64,000 nt of DNA from contig CAMCVN010000001.1 in the NCBI GenBank assembly GCA_945881845.1, positions 62,001 through 126,000 on the forward strand. The letters are read 5' to 3'. Position 1 is the first letter of the stretch, and each line of letters begins with the position of its first letter. Origin of the DNA: Bifidobacterium breve. Its GTDB lineage: Bacteria > Actinomycetota > Thermoleophilia > Solirubrobacterales > Solirubrobacteraceae. The notes under the pieces were generated by a model, which had not been told where the DNA came from, did not search any database, and was given only the letters and a program-made list of their open reading frames with translations. Below, piece by piece: positions 42,763-63,009 of this stretch. Position numbers and translations under genes: made by a program.

Positions 42763-45357
42763 TTAGGAGCCAAGCGCCGCTTCGACAGTCTTCGCTGCCA
42801 ACGCAAGCGCCTCTTCGAGCTTCTCCGGGTCTTTGCCGCCGGCTTGGGCGATCGTGTCGCGCCCTCCCCCGCCTCCGCCGACTACGGCTGCCGCGACGGC
42901 GACAACATCGCCGGCCTTGACGCCCCTCTCAACGAGCGCCGGCGTGACGGCAACGACGAGCGAAACGCGCCCATCAACGACGCTGCCGACGACGACCGCA
43001 GCGAGCTCGCCGAGCCTTCCCTTTAGGCGGTCGGCGACATCCATCAGAGCCTTTGCGGGGACAGCGCCAACGTCAGCGACTAGTAGTTGCGCGTCGCCGA
43101 GCTTGGTAGCGGCGGCGGCGAGCCGTTCCTCATCGACGCCCGCGCCAGCCTCATCGGTTGAGCTTCGAGCGCTCTGCTTCAGTTTGCTGACAGCCGCAGG
43201 GACTTGGTCAGGTGTTGTCTTCAAAGCCTGCGCGGCGGCGCTGAGCAGCGCGTCGTGACCGCGCAGCAGTTCGACCGCCACAGGCCCGGTCACGGCCTCG
43301 ATCCGCCTCACGTTGGCGGCGCTCGACCCTTCGCTGATGATCTTCAGGCAGGCGATCTCCGACGTCCGTGCGACGTGGGTACCGCCGCATAGCTCGCGTG
43401 AGAAGCTACCGTCGCCGATCTCAACCATCCGCACGATCTCGCCGTACTTCTCACCGAAGAGAGCCATCGCGCCAAGCTTCTGTGCTTCGTCGATCGTCGT
43501 TGTCAGTGCTCGCACATTCAGGCTCGCAAGGATCTTGGCGTTGACTTCGTCTTCAACAGCTTGGCGGTCATCGTCGCTGAGCCGCGCCGAATGGTTGAAG
43601 TCGAAGCGGAGCTTCTCTGGCCCGACGTAGGAGCCGGCCTGACGAACGTGGTCGCCAAGCCGCTCGCGCAGCGCGGCATGAAGCAGATGCGTGGCGGTGT
43701 GGTTGCACTCCGTCGCGTGGCGAGCGGTTGCGTCAACCTCAGCGACGACCTCTGCCCCAACCTCGGGCGACTCGCTCAAGCCCTCGACGATTAGCGCTTG
43801 ATCATCACCGGCGCGAATTACACCAACAACGGTGGCGATCGGATCTCCGTTGGCTGAGCTCAACTTCCCGGTGTCCCCAGCCTGGCCGCCGCCTTCGGCG
43901 TAGAAAGGCGAGTCGGCGAGCTTCACCAGCATTCGACCATCCTGCTCTGCGCTTCCAACAACGTTGGTTCGAGCGCTGAGCGACTCGTAGCCGACGAACC
44001 GTGCCTGGTCGCCGCCGACCGCGCGAACCGCTTCGGCCGAAACTCCAACCTTGCGCTCGCCTGCGCCGGCCGCTGAGCGCGTCCGCTGCTCGCCCATCAG
44101 GCGATCAAAGTCCTCCTGCTGCTCAAACGGAACGCCGCGTTCCTCGGCCAGCTCCCGCGTCAGTTCGATCGGAAAGCCAAAGGTGTCGTGGAGGCGGAAG
44201 GCATCGTCGCCACTGAGAGTGCCCGCAGCGAGCAGCTCCTCGAGCAGGCCACTGCCCTGGACGAGAGTGCGACCGAAGCTCTCCTCCTCGCCGCGGACCC
44301 ATTCGAGGATCGTCTTGCGGCGTTCGACGAGCTCCGGGTAGGCCGCGCCCATCACGTCAATGACCTGCTCGGCGAAAGCCGGTAGGAACTGACCCTCAAT
44401 CCCGATCCTCTGGCCCTGCAGCACGGCACGGCGCATAACGCGGCGCAGGATGTAGCCGCGGTCCTCATTCGACGGAACGATGCCGTCTGCGATCAGGAAG
44501 GTCATCGCGCGCGAGTGGTCGGCAAGGATCCGCAGAGCGCGCACGTCAGCGTCGCCGCTGCCAAGTTCGCGGCCAAGCGCCATTAGCCCAGCGAATTGAT
44601 CGGTCTCAAAGACGCTCTCAGCCTCTTGCTCAATCAGCGCAAGGCGGTTGAGGCCAGCGCCGGTGTCGATGTTCTTCGCCGGTAGCGGCGTGAGCACGCC
44701 CCCGGCGCTTTGGTCGAACTCCATGAAGACGAGGTTCCAGTACTCAAGGAAGCGATCGTTCTCGCCGCCGGGAAGGTCATCCGGCGAGCCGTACTGTTCG
44801 CCGCGGTCGAGGTAGAGCTCGCTACAAGGGCCACACGGACCGGTCGGCCCGGCCTGCCAGAAGTTCTCAGAGCGAGGACAGAGGACGATCCGTTCGCGCG
44901 GGACTCCTACTGCCTCCCAGGCAGCGATTGCCTCTTCGTCTGGGCCGAGACCGAGCTCCTTGTCGCCCTCAAAGACGGTAATCCAGATCTTCTCGGCGTC
45001 AAAGCCAAAGCCCTCGAGCGAGAGCTTCCAGGCCAGTTCGATCGCACCCTCTTTGAAGTAGTCGCCAAGCGAGAAGTTGCCGAGCATCTCGAAGAATGTG
45101 AGGTGACGGGCGGTCTTGCCAACGTTCTCGATGTCGGTCGTGCGGAAGCACTTCTGGCAGCTCGTCAGGCGCGGCGCCGGGGGCTGCTCCAGACCCATGA
45201 AGTACTCCTTCAGGGGGTGCATCCCGGCCGTCGTCAGCAGCACCGACGAATCAAAAGAAGCTGGAACAAGCGATCCGGACGGGCGCAGCGTGTGGCCATT
45301 GGCCTCAAAGAACTCAAGGAAGGTCGTGCGGATCTGGTCGGAGCTGCGAGCCGGCAT
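42763..45357 (-). CDS. alaS: Alanyl-tRNA synthetase
   Basis: An 864-residue class II synthetase. ATG at 45357 (MPARSSDQIRTTFLEFF) overlaps the MnmA-fusion stop as ATGA; an upstream start would add 39 residues. Catalytic core 1-250, tRNA-recognition helices, editing domain with HTATHLLHA and CGGTHV zinc motifs near residues 560-670, oligomerisation coiled coil and C-Ala domain with VGGGGGGRDTIAQAGG. All signatures are intact. Confidence 0.97.
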   Translation of the reverse strand: MPARSSDQIRTTFLEFFEANGHTLRPSGSLVPASFDSSVLLTTAGMHPLKEYFMGLEQPPAPRLTSCQKCFRTTDIENVGKTARHLTFFEMLGNFSLGDYFKEGAIELAWKLSLEGFGFDAEKIWITVFEGDKELGLGPDEEAIAAWEAVGVPRERIVLCPRSENFWQAGPTGPCGPCSELYLDRGEQYGSPDDLPGGENDRFLEYWNLVFMEFDQSAGGVLTPLPAKNIDTGAGLNRLALIEQEAESVFETDQFAGLMALGRELGSGDADVRALRILADHSRAMTFLIADGIVPSNEDRGYILRRVMRRAVLQGQRIGIEGQFLPAFAEQVIDVMGAAYPELVERRKTILEWVRGEEESFGRTLVQGSGLLEELLAAGTLSGDDAFRLHDTFGFPIELTRELAEERGVPFEQQEDFDRLMGEQRTRSAAGAGERKVGVSAEAVRAVGGDQARFVGYESLSARTNVVGSAEQDGRMLVKLADSPFYAEGGGQAGDTGKLSSANGDPIATVVGVIRAGDDQALIVEGLSESPEVGAEVVAEVDATARHATECNHTATHLLHAALRERLGDHVRQAGSYVGPEKLRFDFNHSARLSDDDRQAVEDEVNAKILASLNVRALTTTIDEAQKLGAMALFGEKYGEIVRMVEIGDGSFSRELCGGTHVARTSEIACLKIISEGSSAANVRRIEAVTGPVAVELLRGHDALLSAAAQALKTTPDQVPAAVSKLKQSARSSTDEAGAGVDEERLAAAATKLGDAQLLVADVGAVPAKALMDVADRLKGRLGELAAVVVGSVVDGRVSLVVAVTPALVERGVKAGDVVAVAAAVVGGGGGGRDTIAQAGGKDPEKLEEALALAAKTVEAALGS

Positions 45358-46766
45358 CAGGCGATTGTGGCGCATCCGACGACGCGATCGCCGCTGAGCA
45401 GCACCGCCGTCTGCCCCGGAGCGGGCGCCCAGGCCGATTTCTTCAGCTCTAGGACCGCTCCGTTGAGTCGACATTCGAGCGCTGGCGCATGCGAGCGAAG
45501 CCGCGCTTGATCGACAGTTTCAGCCGGGCGATAGAGCTTCACGTCGGTCAGTTCGACCTCGCTGCGATGAAGCTGATCGCGCGTTGCGACGGTGACCGTG
45601 TTGGCCTCGGCGTCGGTTGCTGCGACGTAGAGCGGCTCGGCGACTCCACCGATCTCAAGCCCGCGCCGCTGACCGACCGTGAAACCGTGGGCGCCGTTAT
45701 GGCTCCCTACCTTGACTCCGTCGAGATCGACGATCGGTCCCGGGCGATCGGGAATGCCGCCATGTCGGGCGAGGAAGGCGTCGCTGGCCGTTCCGGCAAG
45801 GAAGCAGAGATCCTGAGAATCGGGCGTCTGCGCGACCGACAAGCCAGCGTCGGCGGCGATCTGGCGAACCTCCGGCTTTGTCATCTCACCGAGCGGGAAG
45901 AGCATCCGTGCGACCGACTCCGGCGCCAACGCCGCGAGCATGTACGACTGATCCTTGGCAGGGTCGGCTGCGGCGCGCAGAAGGCCATCGTCGCCTACAC
46001 GGGCGTAGTGGCCAGTTGCTAGCTCGACTGCACCGAGGCGCGTCGCGAGATCGAGCATCGCGTCGAGGCGAACGGCGCCGTTGCATCGCACACACGGGTT
46101 CGGCGTCTTGCCCGCGGCATGCCCGGCAATCCACGGTTCCACAACGCCGGCGCGAAACGCCTCACGCAGGTCGAGCGTTAGGTGGGCGAGACCCAAACCA
46201 TGCGCCAGCGACCGCGCGCGTTGGACTGCGCTTGCCGAGCAGCAGCTTCCCTCAGCGTCGTTCTGTTCGTCGCGCCAGAGCTCGAGTGTCACCGCAACAG
46301 GCGGCTGATCGGAGCGCCCAGCGCAGAGATGAGCCGCAACGGCGCTATCAACGCCGCCGCTCATAGCGATCAAGACGCGGCCTGGCTGCGGCTCGAGCTG
46401 CGCGCTCGCGGCTACCGCGCCGCCCAACGCGCGCGCCAGCGCGTCGGCGGCCAACTCTGCGGCGTGGATTTTCCCTGCGCTCAGCCCTCCGAGCTGCTTG
46501 CTGACGTCGGCCGTACCGACCTTCGCTGCCTCGAGCACCGCTGCGCCGTCTACCAGTTCAACGGCCGCGCTGGCGGCAGCGCTGGCAGCGCCGCAGCCGG
46601 AGGCCGCAAAAGTCGCTCCGACGACTCGTTCACCCTCAACTCGGATTGCGATACGTACGAGGTCGCCGCAAGCAGCGCCCCCGGCGACGCCACAGTGAGC
46701 GCCTTCCGGCACATCGCCCTGCCCGCGCGGATGGCGCAGATGATCCTCAAAACGCTCGTCAGCCAT
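45357..46766 (-). CDS. mnmA: NifU-like scaffold fused to tRNA 2-thiouridylase MnmA
   Basis: A 469-residue fusion. Residues 1-120 are an IscU/NifU N-terminal-type scaffold: GAACGDLVRI (Cys1 and Asp), SGCGAASAAASA (Cys2), but the third ligand motif KIHC reads KIHAA, so Cys3 is Ala. Residues 125-469 are MnmA, which adds sulfur to U34 of Lys, Glu and Gln tRNAs: PP-loop MSGGVDSAVA, GKTPNPCVRCN (first catalytic Cys), and DSQDLCFL (second Cys). Ends overlapping alaS. The scaffold may pass sulfur or an Fe-S cluster to the thiouridylase; this is inference. Confidence 0.92.
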   Translation of the reverse strand: MADERFEDHLRHPRGQGDVPEGAHCGVAGGAACGDLVRIAIRVEGERVVGATFAASGCGAASAAASAAVELVDGAAVLEAAKVGTADVSKQLGGLSAGKIHAAELAADALARALGGAVAASAQLEPQPGRVLIAMSGGVDSAVAAHLCAGRSDQPPVAVTLELWRDEQNDAEGSCCSASAVQRARSLAHGLGLAHLTLDLREAFRAGVVEPWIAGHAAGKTPNPCVRCNGAVRLDAMLDLATRLGAVELATGHYARVGDDGLLRAAADPAKDQSYMLAALAPESVARMLFPLGEMTKPEVRQIAADAGLSVAQTPDSQDLCFLAGTASDAFLARHGGIPDRPGPIVDLDGVKVGSHNGAHGFTVGQRRGLEIGGVAEPLYVAATDAEANTVTVATRDQLHRSEVELTDVKLYRPAETVDQARLRSHAPALECRLNGAVLELKKSAWAPAPGQTAVLLSGDRVVGCATIA

Positions 46767-46797: not shown

Positions 46798-48573
46798 TTA
46801 ACTGGCGGCGGGGGGCGTTTGCGGCTTGATGCCGAGGTCGCGCAGTTGGCGGGCGTCGGCTGGAGCCGGGGCACCGGTCAGCGGGTCGGCGCCGCTCGCC
46901 GTCTTTGGGAAGGCAATCACGTCGCGGATCGAATCGCGGCCGCAGACGAGCGCCGCAATTCGGTCGAGCCCGAAAGCGATGCCGCCGTGTGGCGGTGCGC
47001 CGTACTCGAGCGCTTCAAGCAGAAAGCCGAAACGCTCCTTGGCCTCGTCGGCGTCGAGCCCTATCGCGTCGAAGACGCGGCTCTGCACCTCAGGCGTGTT
47101 GATGCGGATCGAACCGCCGCCAAGCTCATTGCCGTCAACAACCAGGTCGTAGGCGCGTGAGCGCAGCGCCGCTGGATCGTCGAGGTCGCCCTCGGGCGCC
47201 GTGAAGGGATGGTGCAGCGCGGTCAGGTCCCCGCTCTCTTCATCAGCTTCGAACATCGGGAAATCAACAACCCAGCAGACGGAGTGTTGATCATCAGGGA
47301 TCAAGCCGAAGCGCGAGCCGAGCTCCAAGCGGAGCGCCCCGATCGCAACCGGCGCGACGGACGGGCTGTCAGCGACAAAGCAGAGCAGGTCGCCGTCGCT
47401 CGCTTCGAGTGCCTGATTAACGGCCGTGATCTGTTCGGCAGTGAAGAACTTGGCGAGGTTGCCGGTCCAGCCGCCGTCACCGACGACGATCGGCGCGACA
47501 GCTTTGGCGCCGTGAACCTGCACGACCTCGTTGAGGCTGTCTAGCTCGGAGCGCGACATCTCGCGCGCACCGGCGTTGAGCGCGCGGACGGTTCCGCCGC
47601 CGCTGAGGACCGATTCGAAGACCTTGAACTCGGAGCCGCGGAGCTGCTCGCTGACGTCCTTGATCTCAAGCCCAAAGCGAAGGTCGGGGCGGTCGCTGCC
47701 GTAGCGCAGCATTGCCTCGTCGTAACCGATCCTCGGCCAAGGAGTCGGAGCAATCGGAAAGTCGGTCGCCTCGAATACTGCGGCGATCGCAGCCTCGCTG
47801 ACCTCAATTACTTGGTCTTCGTCGACAAACGCCATCTCGACGTCAAGCTGCGTGAACTCCGGCTGACGGTCGGCGCGCAGATCCTCATCGCGGAAGCAGC
47901 GCGCAATCTGGAAGTAGCGCTCGTAGCCGGCCATCATCAGCAGTTGCTTGAAGAGCTGCGGCGACTGCGGTAGCGCGTACCAGTCGCCTGGGTTCATCCG
48001 GCTCGGAACGAGGAAGTCGCGCGCGCCTTCAGGCGTTGACTTCGTCAGGATCGGCGTCTCGATCTCAAGGAAGTCGCGCTCGACAAGCTGCTGACGCAAC
48101 GTTTGCGTGATCAGCGCCCGCGTAATCATCGTCTGCTGCATTCCGGCGCGACGAAGGTCGAGCCAGCGGTAACGGAGCCGTGTTGTCTCGTCGACCGGGC
48201 CGTCATCATCGATCGCGAACGGCGGCGTGTGGCTAGAGGCGAGAGATTCGCCCTGCGAGACCTCCAACTCGACCGCGCCGGTCGCCATTTCCGGGTTCAC
48301 GTTCTCAGCGCTTCGGGCCAGCAGCTCACCACTAACCGAGACAACGTGCTCTGGACGCAGCTGCTCAGCGAGCGCGAAGAGTTCCGCGCCGCGCTCGGGA
48401 TGGAAGACGATCTGGACGATTCCTGAGCGATCACGCAGATCGATGAAGATCAAGCCGCCGTGGTCGCGGCGCCGATGAACCCAGCCCGCGACACGCGCCT
48501 GGCGGCCGACCTCGTCCGGAGTCAGCTCGCCGCACCAACTGTCGCGGTATTGGTTTGGCTGCGGCGCACGCAT
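46798..48573 (-). CDS. aspS: Aspartyl-tRNA synthetase
   Basis: A 591-residue bacterial-type AspRS. OB anticodon domain ([22 protein letters not shown]), class II motif 2 ([21 protein letters not shown]), GAD insert (about 290-420) and motif 3 ([15 protein letters not shown]). ATG at 48573 overlaps the hisS stop (ATGA); a TTG one codon upstream is ignored. May be non-discriminating (also charging tRNA-Asn) if no AsnRS exists; cannot be seen here. Confidence 0.97.
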
Positions 48574-49832
48574 CAAGAGATCCCTCGGCCACGAAGGACG
48601 GCGGCCAATGCCGCGTCGCCGTCCTCGAAGTGTGTCGTCTCGCCGTTTTCGAAATCCTTCAGCTCGATCCCGGAAGAAGAGACAGCGGCAACGTAACGCG
48701 CCTTGACCCTGTCTGCGTGCTTGAACTGCCCTTTGATCGAGCGGCCGGCAAGCTCAATTTGGGTTGGAACGCCGGCGCGCCGAGCAGCGGTACTGAGCGC
48801 GAAGCTGGTTGCCGTCGTCGCCGCGGCATCGTCTGCGCGCGCTACAAACAAGACCGTCAGCGGCTCCGGCGCGGGAAGACCCTCGGCCGCCAAGAGGATC
48901 CGCTCGACCCCAGCCGCCCAGCCAAAGCCGGGAGTCGGTGGGCCGTCGATCTGCTCGGCGAGACCGTCGTAACGGCCGCCGCCGCCAACGCCGCTCTGCG
49001 CCCCAAGCGCCTCGGAGCTGAACTCGAAGACGGTGCGGGCGTAGTAATCGAGACCTCGAACGAGCGTCGGATCGATCACGTACGGCAGCTCGATCGCGTC
49101 GAGCAGCGAACGGACCTGCGCGAAATGATCGAGATCTTCTTTGCCGAGATGGTCGAGCAGCAGCGGCGCGGTTGACATCACCGCGCGCGTGGAGTCGTCA
49201 GCCGAATCGAAGGCACGCAATGGGTTTAGATCGATGCGAGCTTTGACGTCGTCGGCGAGTTGGTCTTCGTTTGCGCGCAGATGAGCCTTCAGCAGTTCGC
49301 GGTAGCTCTCACGCGCTGCTGCGCCTCCAAGGCTGCCGATCCGCAGCTGAAGTCCCTGCACTCCGAGCTGCTCGAGGATCTCGGCCAGAAGAGCGATCGA
49401 TTCGGCGTCGACGGCAGGATCGTCGCCACCGATCGCCTCGGCGCCGATCTGCCAGAACTGGCGGTAACGACCCTTCTGCGCGCGTTCGTAGCGAAAGCAG
49501 CTCGAGAGGTACCAGAGCTTGACTGGCTGAGGCAGCTTGTGCATCCCGTGCTGCAGGTAGGCGCGCATGATCGGCGCCGTCACTTCGGGGCGCAAGGTCA
49601 ACGAGCGCTCGCCTCCATCAACGAAGCTGTACATCTCCTTCTGAACGATGTCGGTCGCCTCGCCGACGCTGCGCGTGAAGAGTTCGGTCGGCTCGAAGCT
49701 CGGCGTCTCAATTCGCTCGTAGCCGGCACCCTCGAGCACTGAGCGCGTGACGTTCTCAACCGCTAGCCGGAGCGGGGCCTGCTCGGGCAGGATGTCGAAG
49801 GTGCCGCGCGGCGCCTGCAGCGGAGCGCTCAC
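48573..49832 (-). CDS. hisS: Histidyl-tRNA synthetase
   Basis: A 419-residue class II synthetase. N-terminal GTFDILPEQ, motif 2 FRYERAQKGRYRQFWQIG, HisRS signature VRGLDYYARTVFEF, GGGGRYDGL, and an anticodon domain from about residue 320. GTG at 49832 overlaps the MBL hydrolase stop as GTGA. Transcribed with aspS, as in many Gram-positives. Confidence 0.97.
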   Translation of the reverse strand: MSAPLQAPRGTFDILPEQAPLRLAVENVTRSVLEGAGYERIETPSFEPTELFTRSVGEATDIVQKEMYSFVDGGERSLTLRPEVTAPIMRAYLQHGMHKLPQPVKLWYLSSCFRYERAQKGRYRQFWQIGAEAIGGDDPAVDAESIALLAEILEQLGVQGLQLRIGSLGGAAARESYRELLKAHLRANEDQLADDVKARIDLNPLRAFDSADDSTRAVMSTAPLLLDHLGKEDLDHFAQVRSLLDAIELPYVIDPTLVRGLDYYARTVFEFSSEALGAQSGVGGGGRYDGLAEQIDGPPTPGFGWAAGVERILLAAEGLPAPEPLTVLFVARADDAAATTATSFALSTAARRAGVPTQIELAGRSIKGQFKHADRVKARYVAAVSSSGIELKDFENGETTHFEDGDAALAAVLRGRGIS

Positions 49833-61116: not shown

Positions 61117-63009
61117 TCAGCGGAACTGCGGCGCGGCGCGTTGCCCTCTCGGGCTGCGCGCCGCTGTGCCCGCTGGCCTATGCCAGCTGACCGCGCGCCC
61201 GTCGATCACACCGCTAGCCGAGTTCCAAGAACTCATTTTCACCGTGCCGGTCGCTACTCCGCTTAGCGTCAGCGTGCCGCGTGGACCAGACGAGAAGAGG
61301 CGCAGCGATCCGTTCAAAGCGAGGTCGGCTGCGTAGCGATAATTGCGTAGTGCGAGCACTCCCATCGGCCCGTTGCTGGCGTCGAAGCTGCCTCCTCGCA
61401 GGCCGCCCCCACGCGGTTCGGCTCCCGCGGCGAGCATCATGTAGGCCGCACTGACGGCGTCGTCGACGCCGCCAAGCGCAACTGACAGCGCGCGGCCGCG
61501 CGTACCACCAACTCCCCGCAGCGGCTCAGCATCGGCAACCTTCCGCGGCGCAAGCTGAGCCCGACGAACGGCGTTGTCGCGATTGGCGCACGGCGATCCG
61601 ACCTTGACGCCAGCGGCGAATCGCTTCAAAGCCGTCGAGACGCAACCGGTTGTGTCCCCACCGAGGACGTCGTGGCCGGCGCCGCGAAGCTGCACGAGAC
61701 TCGACTTCGGGATCAGCGCCGCCGTAGCGGCCGCGTTCTCGGCCGGAGTGCGCAGATCAAGCTGGCCGGCCAAGATCAGTGCCGGAATATTCGGTAGCGG
61801 GCCCGGCGCTGGCGCGGTATCGAACTGGGTTGGAAATACGAGGCAATCGCTGACCGCGCTCTGCGAGAGGACACTTCCAGCAGTGAACGGGGAGTAGCTC
61901 TCCGGGGCGATCGCGGTGAGAGCGGCCGCGACGACCGACGTCCGCGCTGCAGTGGGGCTGGAAAGCGCGTAGGGCAGCTTCGAGTCAAGGCAGCTCGTAA
62001 TTACGTTCAGGCCAACGCTCAGCTCGCGCGTCGACTGAGGAGCGCCGCCACGAACGGACTGGAGCCGAAGCAGCGGCGCGTAGTCGTTACCGCGCGCCGC
62101 CGCCATCGCAGCGGGAAGCTGCGCCTGTAAGTCAGGGTTGACGTCGCCGCTGGTGATGACGTTGCCAAGCTCATCCTGGCTCTCGTAAGAGGCGGCCTGA
62201 CCTCGGCCGCGGTAATCGTAGATCGCGCCGCGCAGCGGTGCCGCCGCCACGCGCGCCATCACTGCTGTGAGGTCGCCGACCGGATCGGTGGTGATTCCGT
62301 CGCACCGGCGAGCTGCGCACTGCTCCGCCGTGACGCGCGGGATGGCTTCAAGACTGTCGAGGTAGAAGCCGCTCGGCTGGCCGGGCCCAACGACCGAATC
62401 GAGGATCAGTGATTCGGTCTTCGCTGGGTGGACGCGTGCGTATTCCTGAGCGACCCAGGTTCCATAACTGACCCCCATCAGCGCGACTTTGCGGGCGCCG
62501 AAGGCTGCGCGCACAGCGTCAAGGTCAGCGACGCTGTCAAGAGTCGAATAGAAGCGCCGCCTCAACCCGACCTGCTGGGCGCAGTCCCGCACCAGAGACG
62601 GCACCACTTGCTCTGCCTCAGTCATGTTCTGCAACTTCGGGCACGAAAGAGCGCCCGACGAACCTGTGCCGCGCTGGTCAATCACGACGAGTCGGTGGCG
62701 GCGCAGCATCGGCGAGAGGGCTGAAGCGAACTGATCAGCGAACGGAACTGCCGCCTGCCCCGGCCCGCCGGCCAGCGCCACCAGCAGCCCGGCGCCGCGC
62801 GGAAAGCGCTGCTGAGCCGCAACCCTGAGTTTGATCTCGCCGGGCGATCTACCTGAATGATCGAGCGGGACGGTTAGCGTTGCGCAGCGAAACTGGCTGC
62901 TCTGCGGGCAGGAGCCAAACTTCAGCGCTGCTGCGCTAGACGCCGTCAGGCACAGCGCAACGAGGCTGAGAACGGGGGCACCAGCCAGCAGATGTCGCCG
63001 GGCGACCAT
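61117..63009 (-). CDS. Exported alpha/beta hydrolase (tripeptidyl aminopeptidase-like)
   Basis: A 630-residue exported hydrolase of the proline-iminopeptidase/SlpD-TAP group. Signal peptide near residues 1-27. Oxyanion ALAGGPGQAA, DQRGTGSSG, nucleophile GVSYGTWVAQE, acid in AGQLDLRTPAENA, histidine in GAGHDVLGG. TAP-like C-terminal domain, then about 130 residues of unassigned extension (SVALGGVDDAVSAAYMML on). Likely releases peptides or amino acids from N-termini outside the cell. Starts ATG at 63009. Confidence 0.88.
   Translation of the reverse strand: MVARRHLLAGAPVLSLVALCLTASSAAALKFGSCPQSSQFRCATLTVPLDHSGRSPGEIKLRVAAQQRFPRGAGLLVALAGGPGQAAVPFADQFASALSPMLRRHRLVVIDQRGTGSSGALSCPKLQNMTEAEQVVPSLVRDCAQQVGLRRRFYSTLDSVADLDAVRAAFGARKVALMGVSYGTWVAQEYARVHPAKTESLILDSVVGPGQPSGFYLDSLEAIPRVTAEQCAARRCDGITTDPVGDLTAVMARVAAAPLRGAIYDYRGRGQAASYESQDELGNVITSGDVNPDLQAQLPAAMAAARGNDYAPLLRLQSVRGGAPQSTRELSVGLNVITSCLDSKLPYALSSPTAARTSVVAAALTAIAPESYSPFTAGSVLSQSAVSDCLVFPTQFDTAPAPGPLPNIPALILAGQLDLRTPAENAAATAALIPKSSLVQLRGAGHDVLGGDTTGCVSTALKRFAAGVKVGSPCANRDNAVRRAQLAPRKVADAEPLRGVGGTRGRALSVALGGVDDAVSAAYMMLAAGAEPRGGGLRGGSFDASNGPMGVLALRNYRYAADLALNGSLRLFSSGPRGTLTLSGVATGTVKMSSWNSASGVIDGRAVSWHRPAGTAARSPRGQRAAPQFR

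Follow-up and report, generated by a model that had tools for sequence, protein, structure and literature searches.

The 64,000-nucleotide window analyzed here (positions 62,001 to 126,000 of contig CAMCVN010000001.1, assembly GCA_945881845.1) encodes a nifU::mnmA fusion, a single protein in which an IscU/NifU-like domain precedes the tRNA-thiolating enzyme MnmA (Table 1). The first-pass annotation, made from the sequence of the window alone, had proposed this fusion, and its existence is borne out by matches to both halves: Pfam NifU_N at residues 7-114 and the full-length MnmA equivalog NF001138 at residues 130-468 (321 bits against a cut-off of 284, E 6e-96). Sequencing error had been named there as a possible refutation; the fusion withstands it, with an open frame free of stops in the host genome and relatives carrying it at 92% to ~40% identity. 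Because the linker holds no usual start codon, a separate MnmA start inside it is unlikely.

Table 1. Coordinates of the fusion gene, its parts and its neighbors in the window
Feature	Coordinates	Strand	Basis or remark
nifU::mnmA fusion gene, 469 aa	45357..46766	-	ATG start at 46766, TGA stop at 45359-45357
IscU/NifU_N-like domain, residues 5-118	46413..46754	-	Pfam NifU_N E 5e-23 and AlphaFold match to 4eb5_C
Cys33, cluster Cys1, SufU persulfide-acceptor position	46668..46670	-	kept in 130/135 fused domains
Asp35, predicted metal ligand	46662..46664	-	invariant in 58 f1-f4 sequences
Cys58, cluster Cys2, predicted metal ligand	46593..46595	-	invariant in 58 f1-f4 sequences
His101, predicted metal ligand of KIH motif	46464..46466	-	invariant in 58 f1-f4 sequences
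Ala102, replacing cluster Cys3	46461..46463	-	KIHA against KMHC of 4eb5_C; census of relatives
Short linker, residues 119-129	46380..46412	-	no ATG, GTG or TTG codon
MnmA domain, residues 130-468, C-type CC-CxxC-C (C175, C176, C225, C228, C321)	45363..46379	-	
alaS, downstream	42763..45357	-	likely ATG overlaps fusion stop (TGATG)
aspS, upstream	46798..48576	-	31 bp gap to fusion
hisS, upstream of aspS	48573..49832	-	4 bp overlap with aspS

Besides exceeding the equivalog cut-off, the MnmA half has the PP-loop SGGVDS and the catalytic cysteines. The first-pass annotation had reported two MnmA cysteines; they are indeed present, but the count falls short, as five are conserved. Together these five form the motif CC-CxxC-C, which is present in all sampled Thermoleophilia MnmAs, the host's class. 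The motif defines the C-type enzyme, which was reported by Shigi 2020, as cited in PMC11784392, to depend on a [4Fe-4S] cluster; whether MnmA requires the cluster is contested in the case of the D-type enzyme of E. coli (PMC11784392). Judged by its motif, the MnmA domain of the fusion is of the C type, that is, the type reported to depend on an iron-sulfur (Fe-S) cluster. With C-type enzymes such as that of Thermus thermophilus (Shigi 2020, through the same secondary account) it has in common all motif cysteines, the PP-loop and the full-length equivalog match, and it differs from them by the added N-terminal domain.

The N-terminal domain has the fold of an Fe-S scaffold but not its full set of ligands. 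In an AlphaFold model of the fusion (mean predicted local distance difference test score, 95; predicted template modeling score, 0.92), the N-terminal part matches 4eb5_C, the IscU of the A. fulgidus IscS-IscU complex, with a root mean square deviation of 1.1 Å, and the remainder resembles MnmA structures. By the NifU_N fold and by sequence the domain belongs with the IscU/NifU N-terminal domains (PF01592; 4eb5_C; human ISCU2), with which it shares ~35-40% identity and the Cys1, Asp, Cys2 and His ligands, and it scores 79 bits with the NifU/IscU profile TIGR03419 versus 36 bits with the SufU profile TIGR01994. The alignment to IscU structures is free of gaps around the site: C33, D35, C58 and H101 are aligned, and A102 stands opposite the Cys of A. 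fulgidus IscU. The change from KIHC to KIHA (residues 99-102), with Cys1, Asp and Cys2 retained, had been seen correctly in the first-pass annotation. Thus, the alignment gives Ala102 in place of Cys3, and the scaffold set of three cluster cysteines, Asp and His is incomplete. Unlike IscU/NifU proteins, the fusion has Ala where they have the persulfide acceptor and third cluster cysteine, is covalently joined to MnmA and has no adjoining iscS at this locus.

In free human ISCU2, Fe(II) is held by Cys69, Asp71, Cys95 and His137, and NFS1 hands sulfur directly to Cys138 (PMC11021402). The alignment shows no equivalent of Cys138 in the fused domain, which therefore appears to retain the resting metal set without the acceptor. 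His101 could serve as a fourth metal ligand in place of Cys3. A second point of reference is the zinc sulfurtransferase SufU (B. subtilis, M. tuberculosis), in which Cys1, corresponding to Cys33 of the fusion, is the persulfide acceptor (PMC10216065). The two have in common the Pfam family, a four-ligand metal site (predicted in the fusion) and Cys1. However, SufU is not the best family match of the fused domain, whose sequence is nearer NifU/IscU, and the Cys1-Asp-Cys2-Cys3 zinc set is broken, the fusion having His to offer where SufU uses Cys3 as a zinc ligand.

We read 128 loci within Thermoleophilia and 40 from other actinobacterial families, designating families by f codes (f1-f4 make up the host's order; f23 lies outside its class) and loci and genomes by L and G numbers. 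A class-wide search gave a match in 291 of 299 genomes, full-length in most of the matches listed and confined to the MnmA part or little beyond it in f6, f7 and part of f8. The fusion was found at 135 sampled loci from several actinobacterial families and many separate assemblies, including single-contig genomes. Three records titled Bifidobacterium breve and Burkholderiales (L204, L206 and L258) carry a Thermoleophilia-type MnmA with up to 89% identity to that of the window and are probably mislabelled or mixed bins.

None of the 135 fused domains keeps all five IscU ligands together. Writing the residues at C33, D35, C58, H101 and 102 as letters, and counting sequences rather than evolutionary events, 85 have CDC and His without Cys3, 22 have CDC and Cys3 without His, and 28 have a broken core. 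The first-pass annotation had asked how conserved the Ala is: among the 58 sampled fusions of f1-f4, all CDCH, position 102 is never Cys (Ala 55, Gly 2, Val 1). CDCH is also the pattern of f5 (position 102: G 11, A 1) and f23 (A 17, G 2, with four of the A cases unfused), so that every one of the 85 fused domains of f1-f5 and f23 keeps the four predicted metal ligands. The complementary pattern, CDC-x-C, occurs in f10 and f11 (11/11), f55 (4/4), f8 (6/10, the other 4 being broken) and one of two f73 domains, the second of which lacks Cys1. Cys1 alone remains in f9 (11/11) and f12 (2/2), and the domains of f16 and f34 are degenerate, mostly without an intact site. The high retention of Cys33 (Table 1) extends to all 13 f9 and f12 domains, which lack Asp, Cys2 and Cys3. 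By contrast with the fused domains, the NifU proteins of f6, f29, f51 and four other loci from metagenome-assembled genomes (MAGs) are all unfused and all CDCHC. The mutual exclusion of His and Cys3 is striking by counts; with a minimum of three changes of each on the MnmA tree among core-intact rows, the independent events are too few to test it.

The MnmAs of f7 (L052-L056, L071, L072 and L171-L175) begin with a NifU remnant of ~70 aa that has no cysteine and from which the Cys2 helix and the Cys3 loop are deleted. Profile comparison ties the remnant to the NifU domain (probability 96%, E 9e-10), and it is modeled confidently as a ligand-free fold of a three-strand sheet and one helix. In f7, then, part of the domain's role seems to survive metal-free. 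In f1-f4, only seven domain columns are invariant, namely G57, A109, A113 and the four ligands C33, D35, C58 and H101. The ratio of nonsynonymous to synonymous substitution rates (dN/dS) in the window's genus is 0.04-0.15 for the domain and 0.04-0.08 for MnmA, rough values since dS is near or above 1. These low ratios, a sign of purifying selection, together with the invariant ligands suggest that the domain has been retained for a role in which the metal site takes part.

Gene order in relatives points to the source of the domain. In f6, iscS, nifU and mnmA are three adjoining genes at 7 of the 7 loci that reach that far, and the same unfused order is found in f29, f51, two further actinobacterial MAGs and two Clostridia MAGs; in f10, f11 and f23, iscS is followed by the fusion. 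From such comparisons, the N-terminal domain is a descendant of the IscU/NifU of an iscS-nifU-mnmA operon that became joined to MnmA. The operons of Clostridia and other Actinomycetota hold the same three functions side by side, but as separate proteins and mostly with a five-ligand NifU, whereas in the window two are fused and iscS is missing. An unfused NifU without the third cysteine (GKEHA) lies between iscS and mnmA at four f23 loci (L318, L339, L340 and L341) and in this lack resembles the fused f23 domains, so that in this family the loss of Cys3 preceded the fusion or the gene was re-split. The same four proteins disprove the idea that Ala at Cys3 is exclusive to the fusion. An approximately unbiased test on the MnmA tree rejected a single clade of all fused rows (p 3e-6), which argues against a single origin and points to more than one fusion event; the tree was quickly built and has long branches, and a similar result could arise from gene splits or gene transfer. 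We also rejected loss of an adjoining IscS as the cause of Cys3 loss. The idea fits f1-f4 and f7 versus f10-f11, yet f23 has IscS at 19/19 loci and lacks Cys3, f8 keeps Cys3 in six fusions without an adjoining IscS, and independent pairs show no link. This operon origin, the loss of Cys3 in unfused NifU, the His101 metal site and the C type of the MnmA had all escaped the first-pass annotation.

The fusion stands in a tightly packed row, hisS-aspS-fusion-alaS, with all genes on the same strand. The longest alaS open reading frame (ORF), 42763-45474, overlaps the fusion by 118 bases; the ATG at 45357 is the likely start. Relatives L009, L013, L045, L051 and L067 have an ORF, judged by eye to be thioredoxin-like, between aspS and the fusion or mnmA, which the window does not.

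As for the source of sulfur, SufS is the sole IscS/SufS-type match in the host genome; its gene adjoins that of a normal SufU. Its sequence carries the HPHD motif, as in the SufU system, and with PMC10216065 we read this motif as that of a SufS that partners SufU. Two of the five weak PF00266 matches in the host genome, L074 and L075, were considered as desulfurases and set aside, since by our reading their sequences are fragments of a single non-desulfurase aminotransferase. A separate observation concerns f9 and G202, where a molybdopterin oxidoreductase and a class-V aminotransferase of cysteine desulfurase type are encoded in a single open frame (L349:509-4150:+, L350:2469-5960:- and L352:3-3902:-; 1164-1300 aa; Pfam Molybdopterin, Molydop_binding and Aminotran_5). 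This arrangement is a second instance of a desulfurase attached to a protein that probably uses sulfur, and comparable long frames occur in several other f9 genomes.

We propose a model, to which we give an even chance, in which the fused domain is no longer an Fe-S scaffold but an adaptor that holds a metal, provides a docking place on MnmA for a cysteine desulfurase and probably passes sulfur through Cys33. The retained IscU fold and single-metal site (Cys33, Asp35, Cys58 and His101) would bind one zinc or Fe(II), and the domain would act in cis on a desulfurase that in the host is probably SufS, the only one found. Because the ISCU2 acceptor cysteine is missing, sulfur, if it passes through the domain at all, would most likely travel as a Cys33 persulfide, in the way of zinc SufU, before reaching the Fe-S/cysteine active site at which the C-type MnmA 2-thiolates U34 (s2U34). 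The first-pass annotation had offered delivery of sulfur in cis and loss of cluster building as two readings of the fusion, and these are compatible. Loss of cluster building is well supported by the sequences, given the lack of any five-ligand fused domain and the identity of the lost residue as the ISCU2 persulfide acceptor. Delivery in cis is plausible and is the reading we prefer, except that it could not run through that acceptor.

Several observations weigh against this model. In B. subtilis, MnmA receives its sulfur from YrvO itself, without a carrier (PMC11784392), the separate SufU of the host could do the same job as the fused domain, and Cys33 could be kept merely as a metal ligand. 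Neither IscS nor TusA had a match in the host genome, which favors the model, but this genome is a 92.8% complete draft in which either could be missed; IscS was also not found in a 99% complete congener, and IscS-type matches are missing from nearly all f1-f4 genomes, with four exceptions, of which the match in G202 proved to be part of the long molybdopterin oxidoreductase frame described above. The f7 fusions have only a folded remnant without any ligand and MnmA stands alone in some f8 members, so the chemistry of the domain is dispensable in some relatives. Finally, few independent events underlie the ligand patterns.

The alternative that survives best, though we consider it unlikely, is that the domain is purely a docking or structural part, with the IscU-like fold only recruiting the desulfurase or steadying MnmA, sulfur passing directly to MnmA as with YrvO, and any metal being structural. 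Direct transfer from desulfurase to MnmA is known (PMC11784392), and the ligand-free f7 remnant and the largely siteless f16 and f34 domains fit such a role; it would leave unexplained why all 85 fused domains of f1-f5 and f23 keep four ligands and why Cys33 outlasts the others in f9 and f12. Somewhat less probable still is a supply of iron or Fe-S in cis, in which the domain would hold Fe(II) or a labile cluster with which to load the [4Fe-4S] site of the C-type MnmA. The ancestor was a scaffold, the C-D-C-His set is that which holds Fe(II) in free ISCU2 (PMC11021402), and every MnmA checked from the class carries the motif of the type that, in PMC11784392 citing Shigi 2020, is Fe-S dependent. 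Nevertheless, the Cys3 essential to persulfide acceptance in ISCU2 is gone from 85 fusions with an intact core, no fused domain has the complete set, there are standalone C-type MnmAs that lack such a domain, and the cluster need of MnmA is itself contested for the D-type enzyme (PMC11784392). A functionless leftover of operon fusion would suit the graded decay in f7, f9, f12, f16 and f34 but is very improbable, given that dN/dS in the window's genus lies well under 0.2 and the ligands do not vary over 58 sequences. That a sequencing or assembly error joined two genes has a negligible chance: f29 and L318 do carry both genes in tandem in one frame with a single stop between them, but the recurrence of the fusion across so many independent assemblies and families already refutes it.

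Our open-access literature search found no paper on a NifU-MnmA fusion, which is a novel variant built of known parts. The other sulfur routes to MnmA, YrvO-MnmA in B. subtilis and the IscS-TusA-TusBCD-TusE-MnmA relay in E. coli, have no IscU-like part described (PMC11784392). How MnmA obtains sulfur in bacteria without Tus proteins and whether it needs an Fe-S cluster are both debated, and the families examined here offer a natural series of one module: free-standing with the five ligands, free-standing but lacking the acceptor cysteine, joined to MnmA with either C-D-C-His or C-D-C-Cys, and reduced to a ligand-free remnant. Such ready variants lend themselves to telling apart docking, metal binding, sulfur transfer and cluster building. 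More tentatively, some of them may represent a recurring class of IscU derivatives dedicated to MnmA, which have given up cluster building, hold one metal and relay sulfur on Cys1, in the manner of SufU, from SufS or IscS into an Fe-S-type MnmA. If the sulfur relay is true, IscU-fold proteins would have a tRNA-thiolation branch beside Fe-S assembly.

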